Of a stretch of 21,217 nucleotides of DNA, positions 10,517 to 21,217 are shown piece after piece. The stretch comes from a virus, in IMG/VR virus record IMGVR_UViG_3300024264_000191, positions 1 through 21,217 of that record, one strand, 5' to 3'. Position 1 is the stretch's first letter. Each line of letters opens with the position of its first letter. The position numbers and the translations under genes are program-made. The notes below the pieces were generated by a model. It ran no database searches. It had not been told where the DNA came from and saw only the letters and a program-made list of their open reading frames with translations.

Positions 10517-10788
10517 CACTTAGATCTCCCTTCTGCAAATCCCTTAAACGCAGGTTTATTTGCTTTATTGTTTGATTCAGCAATCATACTTTCCTCCTCT
10601 TGAATTTTACTTAATATTTCAAAAGCATCGAATATGCAAAGCTTTTTAGTAGCGGCAGCATTTTTAAGTCTGTCAGCAGATATATCTTCTTCTGAGTCAA
10701 CGATCTTTTCTTTTGCTACCTTTACTAATTCTTTAATTGCTTCCCGCCCAGCGGCTATTATATTCTTCTTCGTTTCTATCGAGTTCAT
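10516..10788 (-). CDS. Possible terminase small subunit / DNA-recognition protein (90 aa)
   Basis: A 90-aa, mostly helical, charged protein: IAAGREAIKELVKVAKEKI, then DISADRLKNAAATKKLCIFD and AFEILSKIQEEESMI, with a basic tail (GFAEGRSK). The helix content, size and position immediately upstream of TerL with a TGATG stop-start overlap suggest a small terminase subunit or packaging-site binding protein. No helix-turn-helix can be assigned by eye, so this is a positional inference. Its ATG at 10788 lies inside the 3' end of the 201-aa gene, giving a 56-nt overlap in another frame. No later Met before the helical core would shorten this, so I keep the long form. The mRNA just upstream (AUAUUGUUAUAAAG) is A/U-rich without a strong ribosome binding site. 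Confidence 0.5.
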   Translation of the reverse strand: MNSIETKKNIIAAGREAIKELVKVAKEKIVDSEEDISADRLKNAAATKKLCIFDAFEILSKIQEEESMIAESNNKANKPAFKGFAEGRSK

Positions 10789-11338
10789 ACTTTATAACAA
10801 TATCATTTGATTTCATACAATACATAATCTGATCGTCTATAACAAATTCCCATTCGCTATTAGGCGTAAAACCAATTATGTCTCCTGGATTGATTCCAGC
10901 GCACTCTAAGGACTTATTACCTATCTTTAGTATACCAATAAGGTTAGCTGTTTTATCGCTGCTAAAAGGGTCTTTATTTTTGACCGGAGCAACAAAGCAT
11001 CTATCGCCGAATGATTTCCAGTTCTTTTTATTTTTGTACAAATATATTTGATCTATTGCACACATAAAAAGCCCGTCTTTAAGAAACGATCTACTATTTT
11101 TTTTAAGTCCTTTCATATCATAAAAAACTCTAAACACATTATGATGAACGACTATTAGATCACCTTTTTTTATTGGTGTTGCAAACGCCGCAGGGGTTTC
11201 AACAACCTCGGCTATATTGTTAACGTGTTTAAAACTTTCTATAGAAGTGTTGGTTATAAGGTCCACTTCTCCAACCTTAACCTGATTATCATATCTTCCT
11301 CCAACAGGCTTTATGATAAAATCGTATATACTTCTCAT
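10733..11338 (-). CDS. Tandem GroES-fold protein (two Hsp10-like domains)
   Basis: This 201-aa protein reads as two GroES-like beta barrels in one chain. Domain 1 (about 1-105) has the opening strand YDFIIKPV, then NIAEVVETPAAFATPIKKGD followed by LIVVHHNVF, and closes with FMCAIDQIYLY. Domain 2 (about 110-190) has GDRCFVAPV, NLIGILKIG, the segment LECAGINPGDIIGF, and closes with IMYCMKSNDIVIKYEL. The last pieces align by eye with the bona fide GroES at 16691-16951, where SECAGIKKDDVIYY is followed by YHVIKAQDVVFVL. Neither domain shows a clean G-G-I-V-L mobile loop, the part that docks on GroEL, so a GroEL-capping role is uncertain. I recall long GroES-like proteins of this kind in marine phage genomes. 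The start overlaps the stop of the 75-aa gene (TAATG). Confidence 0.7.
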   Translation of the reverse strand: MRSIYDFIIKPVGGRYDNQVKVGEVDLITNTSIESFKHVNNIAEVVETPAAFATPIKKGDLIVVHHNVFRVFYDMKGLKKNSRSFLKDGLFMCAIDQIYLYKNKKNWKSFGDRCFVAPVKNKDPFSSDKTANLIGILKIGNKSLECAGINPGDIIGFTPNSEWEFVIDDQIMYCMKSNDIVIKYELDRNEEEYNSRWAGSN

Positions 11339-12317: not shown

Positions 12318-12659
12318 TTATTTTAATCTTGTTAATATAAAATCTCCCGTAAGATCTCCGGTGTAAGTACATAAAATAGTATCATCGTTTTGTAATGAGT
12401 ATTCAATACTTACCGCATATCCGTTGTGAGTATTTTTTAGGTTAGTTATTAATTTGTTATTTTTATAATCTATTATTTTTTCTGGTATTACTCTGTATTC
12501 TTCAAAGCTTGTATTAAACACGTTTAAAACCGCATATTCTGAAGCCACTATTGTAGTTAAATAAGAAGATTCTTCACATTCCCATAACCCGCTTAATTCT
12601 TGTTGTGCAAATAATTGACTTGATACTAGTAATAATAATGCGATAAATAAATTTTTCAT
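12318..12659 (-). CDS. Exported small beta-rich protein with signal peptide (113 aa)
   Basis: The N-terminus is a textbook Sec signal peptide: MKN, a Leu/Ile/Ala/Val core, then SSQLFA followed by QQ, with likely cleavage after A18. The form is typical of Flavobacteriia. No lipobox Cys is at the cut site, so the product should be soluble in the periplasm or secreted. The mature part is about 95 aa and beta-rich: GLWECEES near the start and CTYTGDLTGDFILTRL at the end, a pattern reminiscent of small lipocalin-like barrels. C28 and C97 are the only cysteines in the mature chain and could pair in the oxidising periplasm. The role is unknown. Superinfection exclusion, envelope modification or inhibition of a periplasmic enzyme are possibilities, not conclusions. 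Confidence 0.65.
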   Translation of the reverse strand: MKNLFIALLLLVSSQLFAQQELSGLWECEESSYLTTIVASEYAVLNVFNTSFEEYRVIPEKIIDYKNNKLITNLKNTHNGYAVSIEYSLQNDDTILCTYTGDLTGDFILTRLK

Positions 12660-14953: not shown

Positions 14954-15265
14954 TTAGCAGTTCCATTTTCTTCGCGCAGCTAATCCTCTTTCTGAACTCC
15001 AGCCTTTGGATCTTGCGCAAAATGATTTACGTCTTTTAGCAGCCTTACTGCCTTTCTTAAGCTTTGAAGGAGGCGTAGTCACGGCAGTTTTTAATTTACT
15101 ACCAGGATTATCTTTACGATACTTAGCAACTCCTTTAGCAGTCATTCCACCGCCAGCTTTTTTGCCTGCTCCACCACCTTTTTTTACTTTTGCGTAGTTG
15201 CCCTCTGATTTTTTACGAGAAGGAGCTTTACCTCGTTTTTTTGGCGCTGCTTTTTTTGTTGCCAT
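14954..15265 (-). CDS. Histone-like basic small viral protein, DUF6321-like (103 aa)
   Basis: A Lys/Arg/Ala/Gly-rich protein. The first 40 residues look like a histone tail (MATKKAAPKKRGKAPSRKK). The conserved part is GGMTAKGVAKYRKDNPGSKL, then VTTPPSKLKKGSKAAKRRKS and FCARSKGWSSERG, ending RKWNC. The order G-x-[LM]-[ST]-x-K-G-x-x-x-Y-[RN]-x-x-x-x-[GS]-x-x-L-K-x-x-V-T, then KRRKSFCAR is one I recall from many viruses and annotated as DUF6321; this is from memory. Its start shares bases with the endolysin stop (TAATG). A DNA-binding or virion-internal role is inferred from charge only. Confidence 0.65.
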   Translation of the reverse strand: MATKKAAPKKRGKAPSRKKSEGNYAKVKKGGGAGKKAGGGMTAKGVAKYRKDNPGSKLKTAVTTPPSKLKKGSKAAKRRKSFCARSKGWSSERGLAARRKWNC

Positions 15266-16247: not shown

Positions 16248-16694
16248 TTATCTTGTTTTATCTTTGTTAATTTTTTCTATAGCAGTGGCTAAAGTTTTGT
16301 CACTGTAAGAAATTCGTTTCATTGCTGGATTACGTCTTTTAGAAGTTGGTATATCTTCTTTACCGAGCATTATCCTATAAATCTGTTGTATTATATTTTT
16401 TGTTCTAAAACTGATTTCGTATATACTATAAGTTTTATCAGCCCCATTGTATCCTCTCCATTTAACTATCCAACCTTCTTTAAGTAGCCTATTCCATCTT
16501 CTATTATCCCAAGAGTAAATAAGTATACCATCTTCGAAATCTTTTCTTGTAAACTTACCTAAACAATCGAAATATATTAAAAGCTCCAGATCAGCATCGG
16601 TTAAACCTGTTTTTTTGCAAGCCCATCTTCGTATTACTCTATAATGTTTTAACAGCCCTATCTCTTTTAATTCTTGACCTGTTAACTCTCTCAT
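16248..16694 (-). CDS. Winged helix-turn-helix DNA-binding protein (148 aa)
   Basis: Residues 30-95 fit a winged-helix fold of MarR type. The helices are GLTDADLELLIYFDCLG, TRKDFEDGI and SWDNRRWNRLLKEGW, followed by a wing with IVKWRGY and TYSIYEISF. The C-terminal part is helical and basic (TKNIIQQIYRIMLGKED, then SKRRNP and YSDKTLATAIEKINKDKTR), which may mediate dimerisation or DNA contact. I recall this sequence pattern in uncultured marine phages. It overlaps the groES stop by four bases (ATGA), so it is co-translated with the chaperonins. It could be a late-gene regulator or a packaging or DNA-organising factor. Confidence 0.65.
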   Translation of the reverse strand: MRELTGQELKEIGLLKHYRVIRRWACKKTGLTDADLELLIYFDCLGKFTRKDFEDGILIYSWDNRRWNRLLKEGWIVKWRGYNGADKTYSIYEISFRTKNIIQQIYRIMLGKEDIPTSKRRNPAMKRISYSDKTLATAIEKINKDKTR

Positions 16695-16951
16695 AAAACA
16701 AATACTACATCTTGAGCTTTAATAACGTGATAGGTTTCTTTGTCTAGCTCTATCTTATGGCCAGCGTGCCTATCATAGTATATAACATCATCTTTTTTTA
16801 TTCCTGCACATTCAGACCCTGTAGACACTACAGTAGCTTCTACGTATCTTATATCCTCGCGGTGCGTTTCAGCCAGGAGTAAACCCCCTTTAGTTTTAGT
16901 AACACCTTCTTTTAACTTTTTTATTATTATGTTTCTACCTATTGCGTTCAT
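16691..16951 (-). CDS. groES: GroES co-chaperonin (phage-encoded)
   Basis: An 86-aa Hsp10 protein expected to form a seven-membered lid on GroEL. The N-terminal strand IGRNIIIKKLKEG leads to a mobile loop TKTKGGLLLAE whose GGLLL matches the GGIVL contact of E. coli GroES. The next strand is YVEATVVSTGS, then KKDDVIYYDRHAGHKI, and the closing strand is YHVIKAQDVVFVL. Between VSTG and KKDD there are only four or so residues (SECAGI region), where E. coli has the longer ENGEVKPLD roof hairpin. The roof therefore seems absent, as known for T4 gp31. The gene starts 1 nt after the groEL stop, in the reverse order to the usual bacterial groES-groEL operon, and overlaps the winged-helix gene. Confidence 0.88.
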   Translation of the reverse strand: MNAIGRNIIIKKLKEGVTKTKGGLLLAETHREDIRYVEATVVSTGSECAGIKKDDVIYYDRHAGHKIELDKETYHVIKAQDVVFVL

Positions 16952-16952
16952 A

Positions 16953-18491
16953 TTATCCTCTTACGTTAGACATAACACAGTTGGTAGACAATATAGTCGA
17001 AGCAACTGAGGCAGCATTCTTTAATGCCGACTTGGTAACTAACACAGGATCTATAATACCTGCTTTAAACATATTTACTGTTTTTCCAGTCTCAACATTA
17101 ACTCCAAAATCTTTTTTGTTTATAGGCTCATATTCTAATCCTGCATTTTTCATAATTGTTTTGCAAGGATAATACAAAGCTTCAATAACTAGCTCTTCAC
17201 TAGATGACTTTGGTTTTATACTTCGGATTGCATTAATTAGTGCAACTCCACCACCGGCAACCACACCTTCTTTTATAGCAGCTTTAGTTGCGCATATTGC
17301 ATCTTCTACTCTATCTTTCTTCTCATTTAATTCAACCTCAGAATTACCTCCAACTTTTACTATTGCAAGTTTTGCAGCTAGCATAGCTAATCTTTTTTCA
17401 AGTTTAACTACTTTGTTGGGATTGCTCTCTATAAGCAATTGCTCTTTTATACTTTCAATAATTAATTTAATATCTTCCGATTGATCTTCAGCCACCTGAA
17501 AAACTGTATCTTTAAATGTTGATACTGCTTTGATGCAAGTGCCTAAGCAGTCTAAATCAATTAAATCTAAATCATCACCTAGATTTTCGCTTACTACAGT
17601 TGCTCCTGTTAATAAAGCTAAATCATCAAATATTTCTTTTCTATTAACACCGTGTGTAGGTGCTGGAATTATATTGACTTTTATAGAACCTTTATTTTTG
17701 TTCATTGCAAGGGCTGCAGCAACCTTAGGATCAACATCACCAACTATAAGTAAAGTTAAGTTATTTTTTATAATATGCTCTAATATAGTTTGTATCTGTC
17801 TAATCGTGTCTACAGAAGAATCAACCAATAATATTTTTGGGTTGTTCAATTCAGCTGTGTTACTTGCGTGATTAGTTACAAAATGATTATTAGTAAAACC
17901 TTTTTCATACTGAACTCCTTCAACAACTTCTATACTAGTATTTCCGTCTTGTGCTGTTTCCATCATAACAACTCCCGTTAAATCTACAGCTCTATAAGCA
18001 TCAGCAATTAATTTGCCTAGTTCCGCATCGTTGTTAGTTGATATTGTAGCAACTTCATCTATCATATCCCCATTAACAGGTTTAGCTTGCTTTTCTAAAT
18101 GCTTTAAAGTTTTATCCACAATATTGTTTATTGCGTCTCTTTTCTCCCTACTAGTAAACTTCATAGGTGATTTAGAAAACTCTTTTAATATTGCATGCGC
18201 CAATACCGTAGAGGTTGTTGTTCCATCTCCGGCTTCAGCAACTGTTCTTCTAGCAGCTTGCTTAACTAATGATGCCCCCATATTTTCAACAGGATCTAAT
18301 AACACCGATAATTCTGCAACAGTTACACCATCTTTAGTTATTACAGGTATTCCTTGAGCATCTTCAAAGATTACACATTCACCGCCTCCCCCTAATGTTG
18401 AGGCAACAGCTTCTGTAAGTGTTTCAATACCTTTAAACACTTTTTCTCTACCTTTGTCGCCAAAGCTAAATTGTTTTACTATTTGATTCAT
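16953..18491 (-). CDS. groEL: GroEL chaperonin (phage-encoded, short C-terminus)
   Basis: A group I chaperonin of 512 aa that should fold proteins in an ATP-driven double ring. The nucleotide site is intact by eye: TKDGV with D54 (E. coli D52), GDGTTT at 88-93 with D89 (E. coli D87), RVEDAI with D397 (E. coli D398), VVAGGGVAL, and IIDP with D481. The apical domain (about 190-370) keeps the overall pattern (YEKGFTNNHFV, PKILLVDSSV, KVNIIPAPTHGVNRKEIFDD), but the phosphate loop reads TLGGGGE rather than TLGPKGR. The chain ends CVMSNVRG where E. coli continues with a GGM-repeat tail, so about 20 residues are missing. All features suggest a functional but specialised phage chaperonin. It precedes groES by 1 nt. 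Confidence 0.95.
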   Translation of the reverse strand: MNQIVKQFSFGDKGREKVFKGIETLTEAVASTLGGGGECVIFEDAQGIPVITKDGVTVAELSVLLDPVENMGASLVKQAARRTVAEAGDGTTTSTVLAHAILKEFSKSPMKFTSREKRDAINNIVDKTLKHLEKQAKPVNGDMIDEVATISTNNDAELGKLIADAYRAVDLTGVVMMETAQDGNTSIEVVEGVQYEKGFTNNHFVTNHASNTAELNNPKILLVDSSVDTIRQIQTILEHIIKNNLTLLIVGDVDPKVAAALAMNKNKGSIKVNIIPAPTHGVNRKEIFDDLALLTGATVVSENLGDDLDLIDLDCLGTCIKAVSTFKDTVFQVAEDQSEDIKLIIESIKEQLLIESNPNKVVKLEKRLAMLAAKLAIVKVGGNSEVELNEKKDRVEDAICATKAAIKEGVVAGGGVALINAIRSIKPKSSSEELVIEALYYPCKTIMKNAGLEYEPINKKDFGVNVETGKTVNMFKAGIIDPVLVTKSALKNAASVASTILSTNCVMSNVRG

Positions 18492-18528: not shown

Positions 18529-18553
18529 AAAAGCTACAATTATAATAGCTTCT
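18529..18553 (-). terminator. Weak hairpin between the 84-aa gene and groEL
   Basis: Minus-strand RNA AGAAGCUA pairs with UAGCUUUU (8 pairs, one G-U) around a 9-nt A/U loop, and the U-run is partly inside the stem. It starts 10 nt after the stop at 18563. Few G-C pairs make it a weak terminator at best. A second all-A/U hairpin (18505-18524) lies closer to groEL. Together they suggest a regulatory gap before the chaperonin genes, but no promoter can be named with confidence. Confidence 0.35.
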
Positions 18554-18562
18554 ATTTATTTA

Positions 18563-18817
18563 TTACATATTTGAACTTGAAATCCTTTGCCAATTTGTCC
18601 CGTTATAAAAGCATAAAGCGTTTAAAGTTGTGTTATATACTGTAAGCCCTTCTACTGGAGAAACTATTGCGTTTATTTCAGCAGTAGTCAGATTTTCTGC
18701 AAGCTTAAAATTTGAAGGAGTTATTCTGACATTATCTGTGCCGTTGTATCCGACTATGTAAGCTACATCCGCCGCAGTTGATTTTGTTACAAATTGTGAA
18801 AATTTTATAGTTGCCAT
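18563..18817 (-). CDS. Small tail-fibre-like protein (84 aa)
   Basis: The N-terminal part, IKFSQFVTKSTAADVAYIVG and TDNVRITPSNF, resembles the short repeats by which phage tail fibres begin (a strand ending in V-x-I-x-x-S-x-F/L). The C-terminal part, VEGLTVYNTTLNALCFYNGT followed by NWQRIS, is the VYNTTxNxLxxYNGTxW motif common at the ends of fibre and adhesin domains of Bacteroidota phages. The protein is thus a fibre-type module reduced to head and tail pieces. It follows the giant repeat protein by 34 nt of A/T-only sequence. A virion attachment or linker role is likely but not shown. Confidence 0.55.
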   Translation of the reverse strand: MATIKFSQFVTKSTAADVAYIVGYNGTDNVRITPSNFKLAENLTTAEINAIVSPVEGLTVYNTTLNALCFYNGTNWQRISSSNM

Positions 18818-18851: not shown

Positions 18852-21217
18852 TTATATTGTACAGCTGGTAAATCCAGGTCGGGGTAATGTCCATGAACTT
18901 GCTCCAAAATCAAAGTTAGCGCAACTCGTTACATTAGGATTCACTGCCCAACTACTTAGGTCTTGATTAAAAGCAGTATCAAGATAAAACATAGCATTCA
19001 TAGAAGTAACACTACTTACATCCCAGCTACTTATATCTTTATTAAAAGCAGAATTATCATAAAACATAAGACTCATCTTATTAACACTACCCACATCCCA
19101 AGAACTTATATCTCCATTAAAAACGCAATTTCTAAACATATACTGCATAGTAGTCACATTACTCACATCCCAAGAGTTTAAGTCTTGATTAAATGCAGCA
19201 GAATCATAAAACATATCTTGCATATCAGTAACACTACTCACGTCCCAATTATCAATAGGCTGGTTAAATAAGTCTGATCTCTTAAACATTCCTCTCATAG
19301 TCAATGCGTTAATCGGGGTCCAACTATTTAAAGGCTGATTGTAGGCAGAATCATAAAATACTGAATCCATATTAGTTACACTACTAACATCCCAATTGTC
19401 AAGAGGTTGGTTAAAACTTTTATTTTTCAAAAGTAAAGCTTGCATATTAGTTACGCTACTAGTATCCCAAACTCCAATAGGCTGATTAAACGCGGTATTT
19501 TCCCAAAGCATATACTTCATATCAGTAACACTACTAGTGTTCCATCCAGTAACATCCTGGTTAAAAGCAGATTTAGCAAAAATATAACTTATATTTTCTA
19601 CACTACTCACATCCCAATTGTCAAGAGGTTGGCTATATGCTGCATTTTCAAACATTCTTTGCATAGTAATAACACTACTCACGTCCCAGGCGTTTAAAGG
19701 CTGATTAAAAACAGAGTCCCTAAACATAAAACTCATATCAGTAACGCTACTCACATCCCAAATGCTTATATTCTGGTTAAAGCTATTGGTATCTTCAAAC
19801 ATATATCTCATATCAGTCACATTACTCACATCCCAAGAACTTATATCTTGATTAAAAGAGTCAGCATTTTGAAACATTTCACCCATATTAGTAACACTAC
19901 TCACATCCCAAGTATTAAGGGGTTGATTAAAAACGTTTGCAAAGTCAAATAGTTGTTGCATATTTTCCACGCTACTTACGTCCCAAGAGCTTATATCTTG
20001 GTCAAAAGCTCTAGCGTCTCTAAATAAACCACTCATATCGGTCACGCTACTTACATCCCAGGAACTTATGTCTTGATTGAACCCGCGGGCATTATAAAAC
20101 ATCTGACTCATATTAGTCACACTACTCACATCCCAAGGGCTAATATCTTGGTCAAATGCCACGGAGGAATCAAACATGTTTTTCATGTTAGTAACACTGC
20201 CAACATTCCAAGAACTAATATCTTGGTTAAAAACTGGGTTGTTAAACCAATAAACAATATTAAACATGCTTTCCATGTTGGTAACATTACTAACATTCCA
20301 ATCACTTATATCCCCGTTAAAAGTCAATCTGTCAAAAAACGCATTACTCATATCAGTAACATTATCTACGCGCCAATTTTGTATTTTTCCATAGGGAACG
20401 AGATCGTAGTCTCCGTTGGGATCTTGTGCTAATATGTCATTAATTGCAGTTTGAAAAGTTGCGTTAGTTAACATAATCGCGAATGGAGGTTTTGGCAGTA
20501 GCCAGCTTGTAGCTCCGTCATCAAAATCAAGGTAATCAGTAACTTGATCCACATCCCATGTAATTAAGTTTTGGTTGAAAGTAGTAGCATCTCTAAACAT
20601 GCCACTCATATCAATTACGCTGCCAACATTCCAATTACTTATGTCTTGATTGAAAGAGGAGGCCCCTTGAAGCATACTAGCCATATTAGTAACACCACTA
20701 ACATTCCATCCGGCAATGTTTCCGTTAAAAGAATCGGCATTTCTAAACATATTTTGCATATTAGTAACGCTACTAACATCCCAGTTATTTAAAGACTGAT
20801 TAAAATTATCAGTAGAAATAAACATACTAGCCATATTAGTAACACTACTCACATCCCAAGAGTCTAAAGGCTGATCAAAGATAGTTGCATCTTCAAACAT
20901 ACTCTTCATGTTAGTAACACTGCTTGTATTCCAGGAACCAATAGCTTGATTAAAAGAAGTAGCCGCTAAAAACATAGAGTCCATATTTTCCACGCTGCCA
21001 ACATTCCAATTGCCAATAGCACCGTTAAAAGCACTACAATTTTCAAAAATGTTATTCATGTTAATAACGCTACTAACATTCCAGCCTGCTAGGGATTGGT
21101 TAAAAGCCAAAGCATCACTAAACATAGATTCCATATTAGTTACCTTACTTACATCCCAATTACCTATTGGTTGGTCGAAAACTTCAGCTCCAGAAAACAT
21201 AAATCTCATATTAGTTA
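18852..21217 (-). CDS. BspA/DUF285-type repeat protein, 5' end outside window (at least 787 aa)
   Basis: The reading frame is open to the right edge (…T-N before MRFMF), so the true start is not visible. The rest is a chain of about 25-residue repeats with the consensus FNQ[DP][IL]xxWDVSSVTNMxxMFxxA, the BspA-like/DUF285 repeat of bacterial surface proteins. By the W-[DN]-[VT] core I count 29 copies: nine, then a cap-like segment (ATSWLLPKPPF), an 80-residue linker-plus-starter (FQTAINDILAQDPNGDYDLV), then twenty and a matching cap (ASSWTLPRPGFTSC). No signal peptide, membrane anchor or sorting domain is seen in the visible part. In bacteria such repeats mediate adhesion. In a phage late region, a host-recognition fibre or long adhesin is the likeliest role. 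A host-derived surface protein is the alternative. Confidence 0.8.
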   Translation of the reverse strand, partial: TNMRFMFSGAEVFDQPIGNWDVSKVTNMESMFSDALAFNQSLAGWNVSSVINMNNIFENCSAFNGAIGNWNVGSVENMDSMFLAATSFNQAIGSWNTSSVTNMKSMFEDATIFDQPLDSWDVSSVTNMASMFISTDNFNQSLNNWDVSSVTNMQNMFRNADSFNGNIAGWNVSGVTNMASMLQGASSFNQDISNWNVGSVIDMSGMFRDATTFNQNLITWDVDQVTDYLDFDDGATSWLLPKPPFAIMLTNATFQTAINDILAQDPNGDYDLVPYGKIQNWRVDNVTDMSNAFFDRLTFNGDISDWNVSNVTNMESMFNIVYWFNNPVFNQDISSWNVGSVTNMKNMFDSSVAFDQDISPWDVSSVTNMSQMFYNARGFNQDISSWDVSSVTDMSGLFRDARAFDQDISSWDVSSVENMQQLFDFANVFNQPLNTWDVSSVTNMGEMFQNADSFNQDISSWDVSNVTDMRYMFEDTNSFNQNISIWDVSSVTDMSFMFRDSVFNQPLNAWDVSSVITMQRMFENAAYSQPLDNWDVSSVENISYIFAKSAFNQDVTGWNTSSVTDMKYMLWENTAFNQPIGVWDTSSVTNMQALLLKNKSFNQPLDNWDVSSVTNMDSVFYDSAYNQPLNSWTPINALTMRGMFKRSDLFNQPIDNWDVSSVTDMQDMFYDSAAFNQDLNSWDVSNVTTMQYMFRNCVFNGDISSWDVGSVNKMSLMFYDNSAFNKDISSWDVSSVTSMNAMFYLDTAFNQDLSSWAVNPNVTSCANFDFGASSWTLPRPGFTSCTI
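18864..21217 (-). repeat. Tandem ~75-bp coding repeats (BspA type) in two arrays
   Basis: Within the gene above, about 75-bp units recur with conserved DNA around the codons for SWDVSSVTNM (plus-strand form near ACATCCCA) and FNQ. Array 1 is roughly 20545-21217 (nine units, open to the right). Array 2 is roughly 18930-20400 (twenty units). Each ends with a similar cap of about 20 residues (near 20480-20545 and 18864-18930). Five units are shortened by one residue, and one is longer (near 20235-20255, with YWFNNPV). The units are not identical, so this is an old, diversified array. Confidence 0.8.

Follow-up and report, generated by a model that had tools for sequence, protein, structure and literature searches.

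The DUF285 repeat protein encoded at the right end of IMG/VR virus record IMGVR_UViG_3300024264_000191 is probably a virion-associated, surface-binding head of the tail-fiber apparatus in a podovirus whose hosts are Flavobacteriia-like. The stretch of DNA analyzed here (the window) comprises 21,217 bases and is a fragment. Contact of the protein with the cell surface is likely because related phages carry exchangeable tail-fiber genes at the same site. Directly observed are the repeats and caps, the order of the modules, the fiber slot, the fusions in homologs, and homologs free of secretion signals; its presence in the virion, its mode of attachment, its binding face and ligand, and its effect on host range are inferred.

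According to the mechanism proposed here, two tandem LRR-like solenoids, each with an N-cap and a C-cap, would form an elongated rod, with conserved W/V/M/F/N core positions holding the fold and variable repeat positions (10, 11, 14-18, 22, 24, and 25) presenting the predicted binding face. The missing N-terminus (about 60 aa, judged by the complete homolog L330) would couple the head to a fiber or a fiber-associated protein, a coupling that is modeled on homologs encoded directly after fiber genes. Head exchange would involve entire cassettes, located next to groEL or ahead of the terminase gene, and arrays would change through recombination.

Identity of the Phage

All clearly assigned phage genes of the window are located on the minus strand and encode virion proteins, a major capsid protein, a portal protein, the large terminase (TerL), GroES-like proteins, a holin, an M15 endolysin, and GroEL. 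TerL shows 63% identity to that of Podoviridae sp. ctfjg026, which is circular with 60.9 kb, and about 44% to those of Flavobacterium elemoviruses; further matches are found in Cellulophaga, Tenacibaculum, and Maribacter phages. Judged from these terminase relatives, the window is a podovirus fragment related to the Flavobacterium elemoviruses, and its host most likely belongs to the Flavobacteriia.

GroEL (16953..18491, minus strand; assigned by PHROGs, Pfam, and collinearity) forms the conserved downstream border of the region of interest and is adjoined by an 86-aa GroES (16691..16951, minus strand; Pfam). The window harbors a second GroES-like gene near the terminase gene, encoding a 201-aa form (10733-11338; phrog_13932), and both GroES-like genes are kept in relatives.

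Architecture of the DUF285 Repeat Protein

The gene (18852..21215, minus strand) is visible as an open reading frame (ORF) of 787 aa, whose 5' end lies beyond the right end of the contig. Residues 1-787 consist of DUF285/TIGR02167 repeats. The 25-26 aa repeat exceeds the curated profile cut-offs of both families (PF03382, 5.5e-259 and 843 bits vs. a cut-off of 25 in Pfam; TIGR02167, 321 bits vs. a cut-off of 30 in NCBIfam), and PHROGs 17273, 3649, 22899, and 35701 are matched as well. Repeat units were delimited by cutting at the repeat tryptophan. This splitting confirmed the two arrays described in the first-pass annotation, each terminated by a cap and the second opened by a starter segment. 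The visible part of array 1 (20559..21215, residues 1-219) consists of one partial repeat (19 aa) and eight full 25-aa repeats, followed by cap 1 (20481..20558, residues 220-245), a degenerate repeat with the end SWLLPKPPF. Module 2 begins with a starter or N-cap (LTNATFQTAINDILAQDPNGDYDLVPYGKIQN; 20376..20480, residues 246-280), continues with array 2 (18951..20375, residues 281-755; 19 repeats of 24-30 aa), and closes with cap 2 (18852..18950), a degenerate repeat comprising SWTLPRPGF and the end SWTLPRPGFTSCTI plus stop, with no sorting domain after it; all of these segments are encoded on the minus strand. The total amounts to 28 repeats, or 30 with both cap half-repeats included, and the earlier count of at least 29 is right within this counting convention. 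Across the 21 full 25-aa units, W1, M9, and F19 are invariant and V3, V6, F13, N20, Q21, and I/L23 near-invariant; positions 10, 11, 14, and 17 vary most.

Direct DNA repeats in the array lie above those of 300/300 synonymous-codon shuffles, and the repeat copies therefore share DNA ancestry and are not alike by chance. DNA likeness between the copies amounts to only about 60%, and the longest exact repeat spans 30 nt. Two more specific classifications were tried and rejected. Exact inverted k-mers (9-14) in the repeat DNA were not above 300 synonymous shuffles, which speaks against palindromic PARCEL DNA; the PARCEL authors used MEME palindromes, so degenerate symmetry is possible. As to BspA proper (TpLRR repeats, LRR_5 profile), Pfam reports DUF285 alone for the ORF at E 0.001, and NCBIfam likewise gave no LRR family other than DUF285/TIGR02167. 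Since neither feature was found when tested, we class the protein with DUF285/TIGR02167, and the label BspA, under which it had first been described, is loose: the DUF285/TIGR02167 repeats are real, but they match no other LRR family.

The AlphaFold2 model of the protein is a solenoid of moderate confidence (mean pLDDT 74), obtained from a shallow alignment of 7 sequences. Its best match in VIA-align is the Leptospira LRR protein 4u08 (Z 18.2, rmsd 5.0, 368 residues), followed by a long list of other LRR chains. Since repeat folds in general raise the Z values of this method, the model supports assignment to the LRR-fold solenoid class but no particular function. A phmmer search against PDB sequences returned no solved relative of the protein. 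For the homolog L032 (see below), a Foldseek search of the model against the PDB gave nothing significant, and its BFVD matches were mostly other viral DUF285 proteins.

An Old Two-Module Plan

For module 2 and for the junction between the modules, the closest homolog is found in a related phage, on the IMG/VR contig 3300005588_000106 (L330), which belongs to the same phage family as the window (TerL 65%) and encodes a complete DUF285 protein of 676 aa. This protein follows the module plan of the window, i.e. starter, array, cap, starter, array, cap, and shows 61% identity to the window protein over 131 aa at the module junction. Array 2 is shorter in L330 (12 repeats vs. 19). A tail-fiber gene of phrog_12296 precedes the L330 gene, and the lysis and terminase genes come after it; within the portion read, the gene does not lie directly ahead of groEL, a difference from the window. 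The alignment at the junction is offset by 62 residues. With an array 1 of equal length in both proteins, the window protein would thus lack only about 60 residues and measure ~850 aa in full. The description as a giant protein does not agree with this estimate. When the missing 5' end was sought in the viral contigs of IMG/VR, no near-identical gene and no exact 41-mer match appeared.

It had also been proposed that the whole module was duplicated. Arrays 1 and 2 share 47% amino-acid identity, compared with 48-50% within arrays, with no clearly preferred register, and a recent whole-module duplication was rejected on these grounds. Starters and caps, by contrast, match their positional counterparts in L330. 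The internal starter of the window agrees with its internal counterpart in L330 at 81% identity and with that in L268 at 79%, vs. 67-73% with the N-terminal starters of these two proteins. Cap 2 of the window shows 62% identity to cap 2 of L330 but 51% to cap 1 of the window, and the cap 1 sequences of the window and L330 are identical at 16/26 positions. On the strength of this pairing the duplication is judged to be real and old, and the two-module plan to be older than the divergence of these phages or to have spread among them.

The Fiber Slot

Relatives whose GroEL is 75-98% identical to that of the window (81-98% for L091-L131) are collinear with it on the groEL side until about 18537-18560. 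Beyond this breakpoint (18537..18560), relatives with enough upstream DNA carry long hypervariable tail-fiber genes unrelated to the window. Several of these slot genes start with conserved N-terminal anchors (MxxIxTY..., MANIKFSEF...), and, where scanned, they show S74 chaperone ends or matches to tail spike/fiber PHROGs. An elemovirus gene tried as a DUF285 relative, gp34 (L010 16510-16983), was rejected, as it has a fiber-type MAKIKTY start (MxxIxTY) and no visible repeat; its annotation as 'DUF285 domain-containing' is likely a misannotation.

Between the DUF285 gene and groEL, the window encodes an 84-aa protein (18563..18817, minus strand) that resembles a minimal fiber on the basis of its identity to fiber genes. 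Residues 1-36 form an N-terminal anchor (MATIKFSQF...), of which the first ~35 aa show 58-65% identity to the N-termini of larger ORFs (L016, L047, L037, and L089), and residues 43-84 form a C-terminal tip with up to 71% identity to the C-termini of fiber-type proteins (L147-L158); L047 and L158 have tail spike/tail fiber PHROG matches. By these resemblances, the 84-aa gene is classed as a fiber remnant or mini-fiber. Because collinearity ends at the breakpoint, relatives hold fiber genes there, and the 84-aa neighbor appears to be derived from a fiber gene, the DUF285 gene is assigned to the fiber slot.

This arrangement bears on two other possible origins of the gene. An assembly chimera, or a host gene joined to the end of the phage contig, might come to mind, since the gene is repetitive, located at the contig end, and absent from the other IMG/VR records found. 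Such an artifact is considered extremely improbable, as the fiber-derived phage gene lies between the DUF285 gene and groEL, the GC content of the gene region (0.34-0.37) falls within that of the rest (0.30-0.39), independent contigs (L032, L175-L177) carry DUF285 genes in the same slot, and a related phage encodes the closest homolog of module 2 and the junction. It is also very unlikely that the gene is a degenerate or unexpressed leftover of recombination in the fiber slot: a 787-codon open frame, core positions kept in nearly all repeats, and two intact caps oppose this reading, which could otherwise draw on the 84-aa neighbor, resembling a fiber without its middle, and on the shortening of one related DUF285 head (L179) to 295 aa.

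A Conserved, Putative Coupling Domain With Exchangeable Heads

Homologs with readable N-termini indicate how such a head may be attached. The complete DUF285 protein of L032 comprises 330 aa, of which the first 58 match phrog_21885. The gene order in this contig is an S74-ended fiber gene, a 1-nt overlap, the DUF285 gene, a 132-aa gene, groEL, and groES, continuing to the terminase and portal genes. The 58-aa N-terminal domain (pattern MAVPxTTTF...LLxFRNY) is fused to a DUF285 head in five contigs (L032 and L175-L178), and L305 represents a separate, second fusion of this domain to DUF285. L032 and L175-L179 are the sole DUF285 group seen directly upstream of groEL with a readable N-terminus and the gene order of the window. 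In L179 (3501 onwards), a stop at residue 295 truncates the DUF285 head, whereas the form in L175-L178 has 330 aa. Elsewhere in the same phage family, DUF285 genes occupy the interval from groEL or the lysis genes to the terminase gene (L028, L105, L268, L281, L313, and L330). A common start with differing heads is also seen in L268 and elemovirus gp40, which share MFISIANAIG.

The phrog_21885 domain occurs in 131 IMG/VR stretches. In 71 readable genes, it is followed by C-terminal heads that fall into 19 clusters without mutual similarity at E 1e-5, with DUF285 among them; one head found within L175-L254 is von Willebrand A-like (L206, L209). Where upstream DNA is readable (70 genes), 65 genes overlap the upstream ORF by exactly 1 nt and 64 come after an S74-type coiled fiber tail. 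In Cellulophaga phage phi18:1, the gene with this domain directly follows three structural genes proven by MS/MS; the carriers themselves (phi18:1 gp62 and phi38:1 gp086) are annotated as hypothetical and not as detected by MS. These proteins and their IMG/VR relatives appear to occupy the same slot as the window gene and include the DUF285 fusions of L032/L175-L178 and L305, but most members carry heads other than DUF285, and the N-terminus of the window protein itself lies beyond the contig. Likewise, the cassette site extends from the S74-ended fiber gene to groEL, and the window matches it on the groEL side with the 84-aa mini-fiber in between, the upstream side being beyond the contig.

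These observations permit a broader, tentative proposal that is possible but somewhat short of an even chance, namely that phages of Flavobacteriia use a cassette of 'one coupler, many heads'. The cassette would pair a chaperone-ended fiber gene with an overlapping gene whose 58-aa coupling domain stays constant while the head is exchanged. Capped LRR-like arrays with one module or two would represent one head class, which recombination of blocks inside the array would diversify. If true, it would in effect be a viral analog of repeat-based recognition receptors, e.g. the VLRs of lampreys.

Diversification of the Arrays

The DUF285 proteins of L302 (3195-5183) and L326 (5329-7350), two close relatives of the same family, show 91-96% identity over residues 1-400 and 59-70% over residues 401-600, followed by a rise at the cap. 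Among identical residues, the share encoded by the same codon falls from 0.92-0.98 to 0.56-0.75 over residues 401-600. Synonymous divergence thus climbs together with amino-acid divergence, placing a mosaic break inside the repeat array. This joint rise indicates that part of the array was replaced by recombination and did not diverge through selection on point changes. The suggestion that similar repeats provide a substrate for recombination is hence supported in these relatives and, for the window gene, is a possibility. In the heads of L175-L178, no excess of nonsynonymous change pointing to diversifying selection was found.

Virion Protein or Cell-Surface Protein

Bacterial DUF285 proteins are mostly surface proteins, and the homolog L169 from a Flavobacteriaceae MAG combines a signal-peptide-like start with a Por_Secre_tail domain. 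The window gene might accordingly be an accessory gene carried by the phage, with a product that the infected cell displays or secretes as an adhesin, a decoy, or a factor of superinfection exclusion, and that is not part of the virion. This alternative is regarded as improbable. The complete C-terminus of the window protein has no type IX secretion system (T9SS) sorting domain (PF18962/TIGR04183) in Pfam or NCBIfam, and a Pfam scan of nine viral DUF285 homologs gave none (0/9); the positive controls L169 and L298 carry one. A crude hydropathy test recorded a signal-peptide-like start in 4/66 complete viral DUF285 ORFs (L289, L292, L298, and L316), and no strong one in the family homologs with a complete N-terminus. 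The position of the gene inside the fiber slot argues in the same direction. A signal peptide and host-type flanking genes, named in the first-pass annotation as the features that would mark a host surface protein, were thus looked for in homologs and not found. Its suggestion of a receptor-binding protein finds partial support in the fiber slot, the 84-aa fiber-derived gene, the homologs without secretion signals, and the fiber-associated N-terminal fusion. Points against a virion-borne head are that the contig ends before the N-terminus of the protein, that a single DUF285 group (L032/L175-L179) shares the gene order of the window with a readable start, that gp62 and gp086 are annotated as hypothetical, that the heads of L175-L178 show no nonsynonymous excess, and that 7 sequences underlie the structure model.

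Distribution and Comparison With Known Systems

DUF285 matches are present in 115/50,697 phage records, and the repeats occur in at least 581 IMG/VR stretches. PARCEL repeats were reported for Vibrio phage pir03 (PMC7765460), and two DUF285 proteins were detected in purified virions of the Aureococcus anophagefferens virus (AaV) (PMC7507832), a precedent that counts in favor of a virion-borne head. DUF285 proteins also turn up in numerous aquatic viruses that are not related to each other, including jumbo phages, cyanophages, and giant algal viruses, and this might instead favor a virion protein that binds environmental surfaces, such as algal polysaccharide, particles, or mucus-like gel, and concentrates the phage near its hosts, without recognizing a bacterial receptor. 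Other phages carry non-receptor adhesion domains, as in the adherence-to-mucus model, which also speaks for this option. It is nevertheless thought unlikely, with some chance of being correct, as the gene occupies the slot of the fiber genes of its relatives, which normally decide receptor choice.

As a proposed surface-binding fiber head, the protein can be set beside several known systems. Phage proteins annotated as 'BspA family leucine-rich repeat' (Aeromonas phages D3 and LAh10, Synechococcus phage ACG-2014f, and Vibrio phage pir03) have the same 25-26 aa repeat and a solenoid. Most annotated examples stem from jumbo phages or cyanophages without an assigned location, whereas the window gene lies in the fiber slot of a small podovirus, with the mini-fiber and groEL as neighbors and two capped modules. 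BspA proper of Tannerella forsythia has 23-aa TpLRR repeats and shares with the window protein the idea of a solenoid repeat surface protein and the annotation name; it differs from the window protein, for which no LRR family beyond DUF285 was reported. In T-even phages, gp37 and gp38 constitute the long tail fiber and its tip adhesin, respectively, gp38 having a glycine-rich fold. The likeness to this pair is one of operation only: a chaperone-ended fiber gene comes first, and the next gene joins a conserved start to a binding part that is hypervariable. The head discussed here is a repeat solenoid and not the glycine-rich fold of gp38.

DUF285 in phages is already known; what is new is that a protein of two capped modules is encoded in the fiber slot, together with the broader cassette for swapping heads. 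DUF285 repeats, whose viral role has so far been unassigned, thereby gain a directly testable role as fiber-slot heads, a proposal that draws on complete single- and two-module homologs and on a conserved coupling domain. A general head-swapping cassette could aid the prediction of host recognition in marine flavophages.

Two further genes of the window may be mentioned. The variable region between the lysis genes and the terminase gene contains a 113-aa protein (12318-12659) with a strong signal-peptide-like start (MKNLFIALLLLVSSQLFAQ). A basic 103-aa protein (14954-15265), rich in Lys, Ala, and Gly and of histone-like composition, shows 90-97% identity in the compared relatives L032, L105, and L130.
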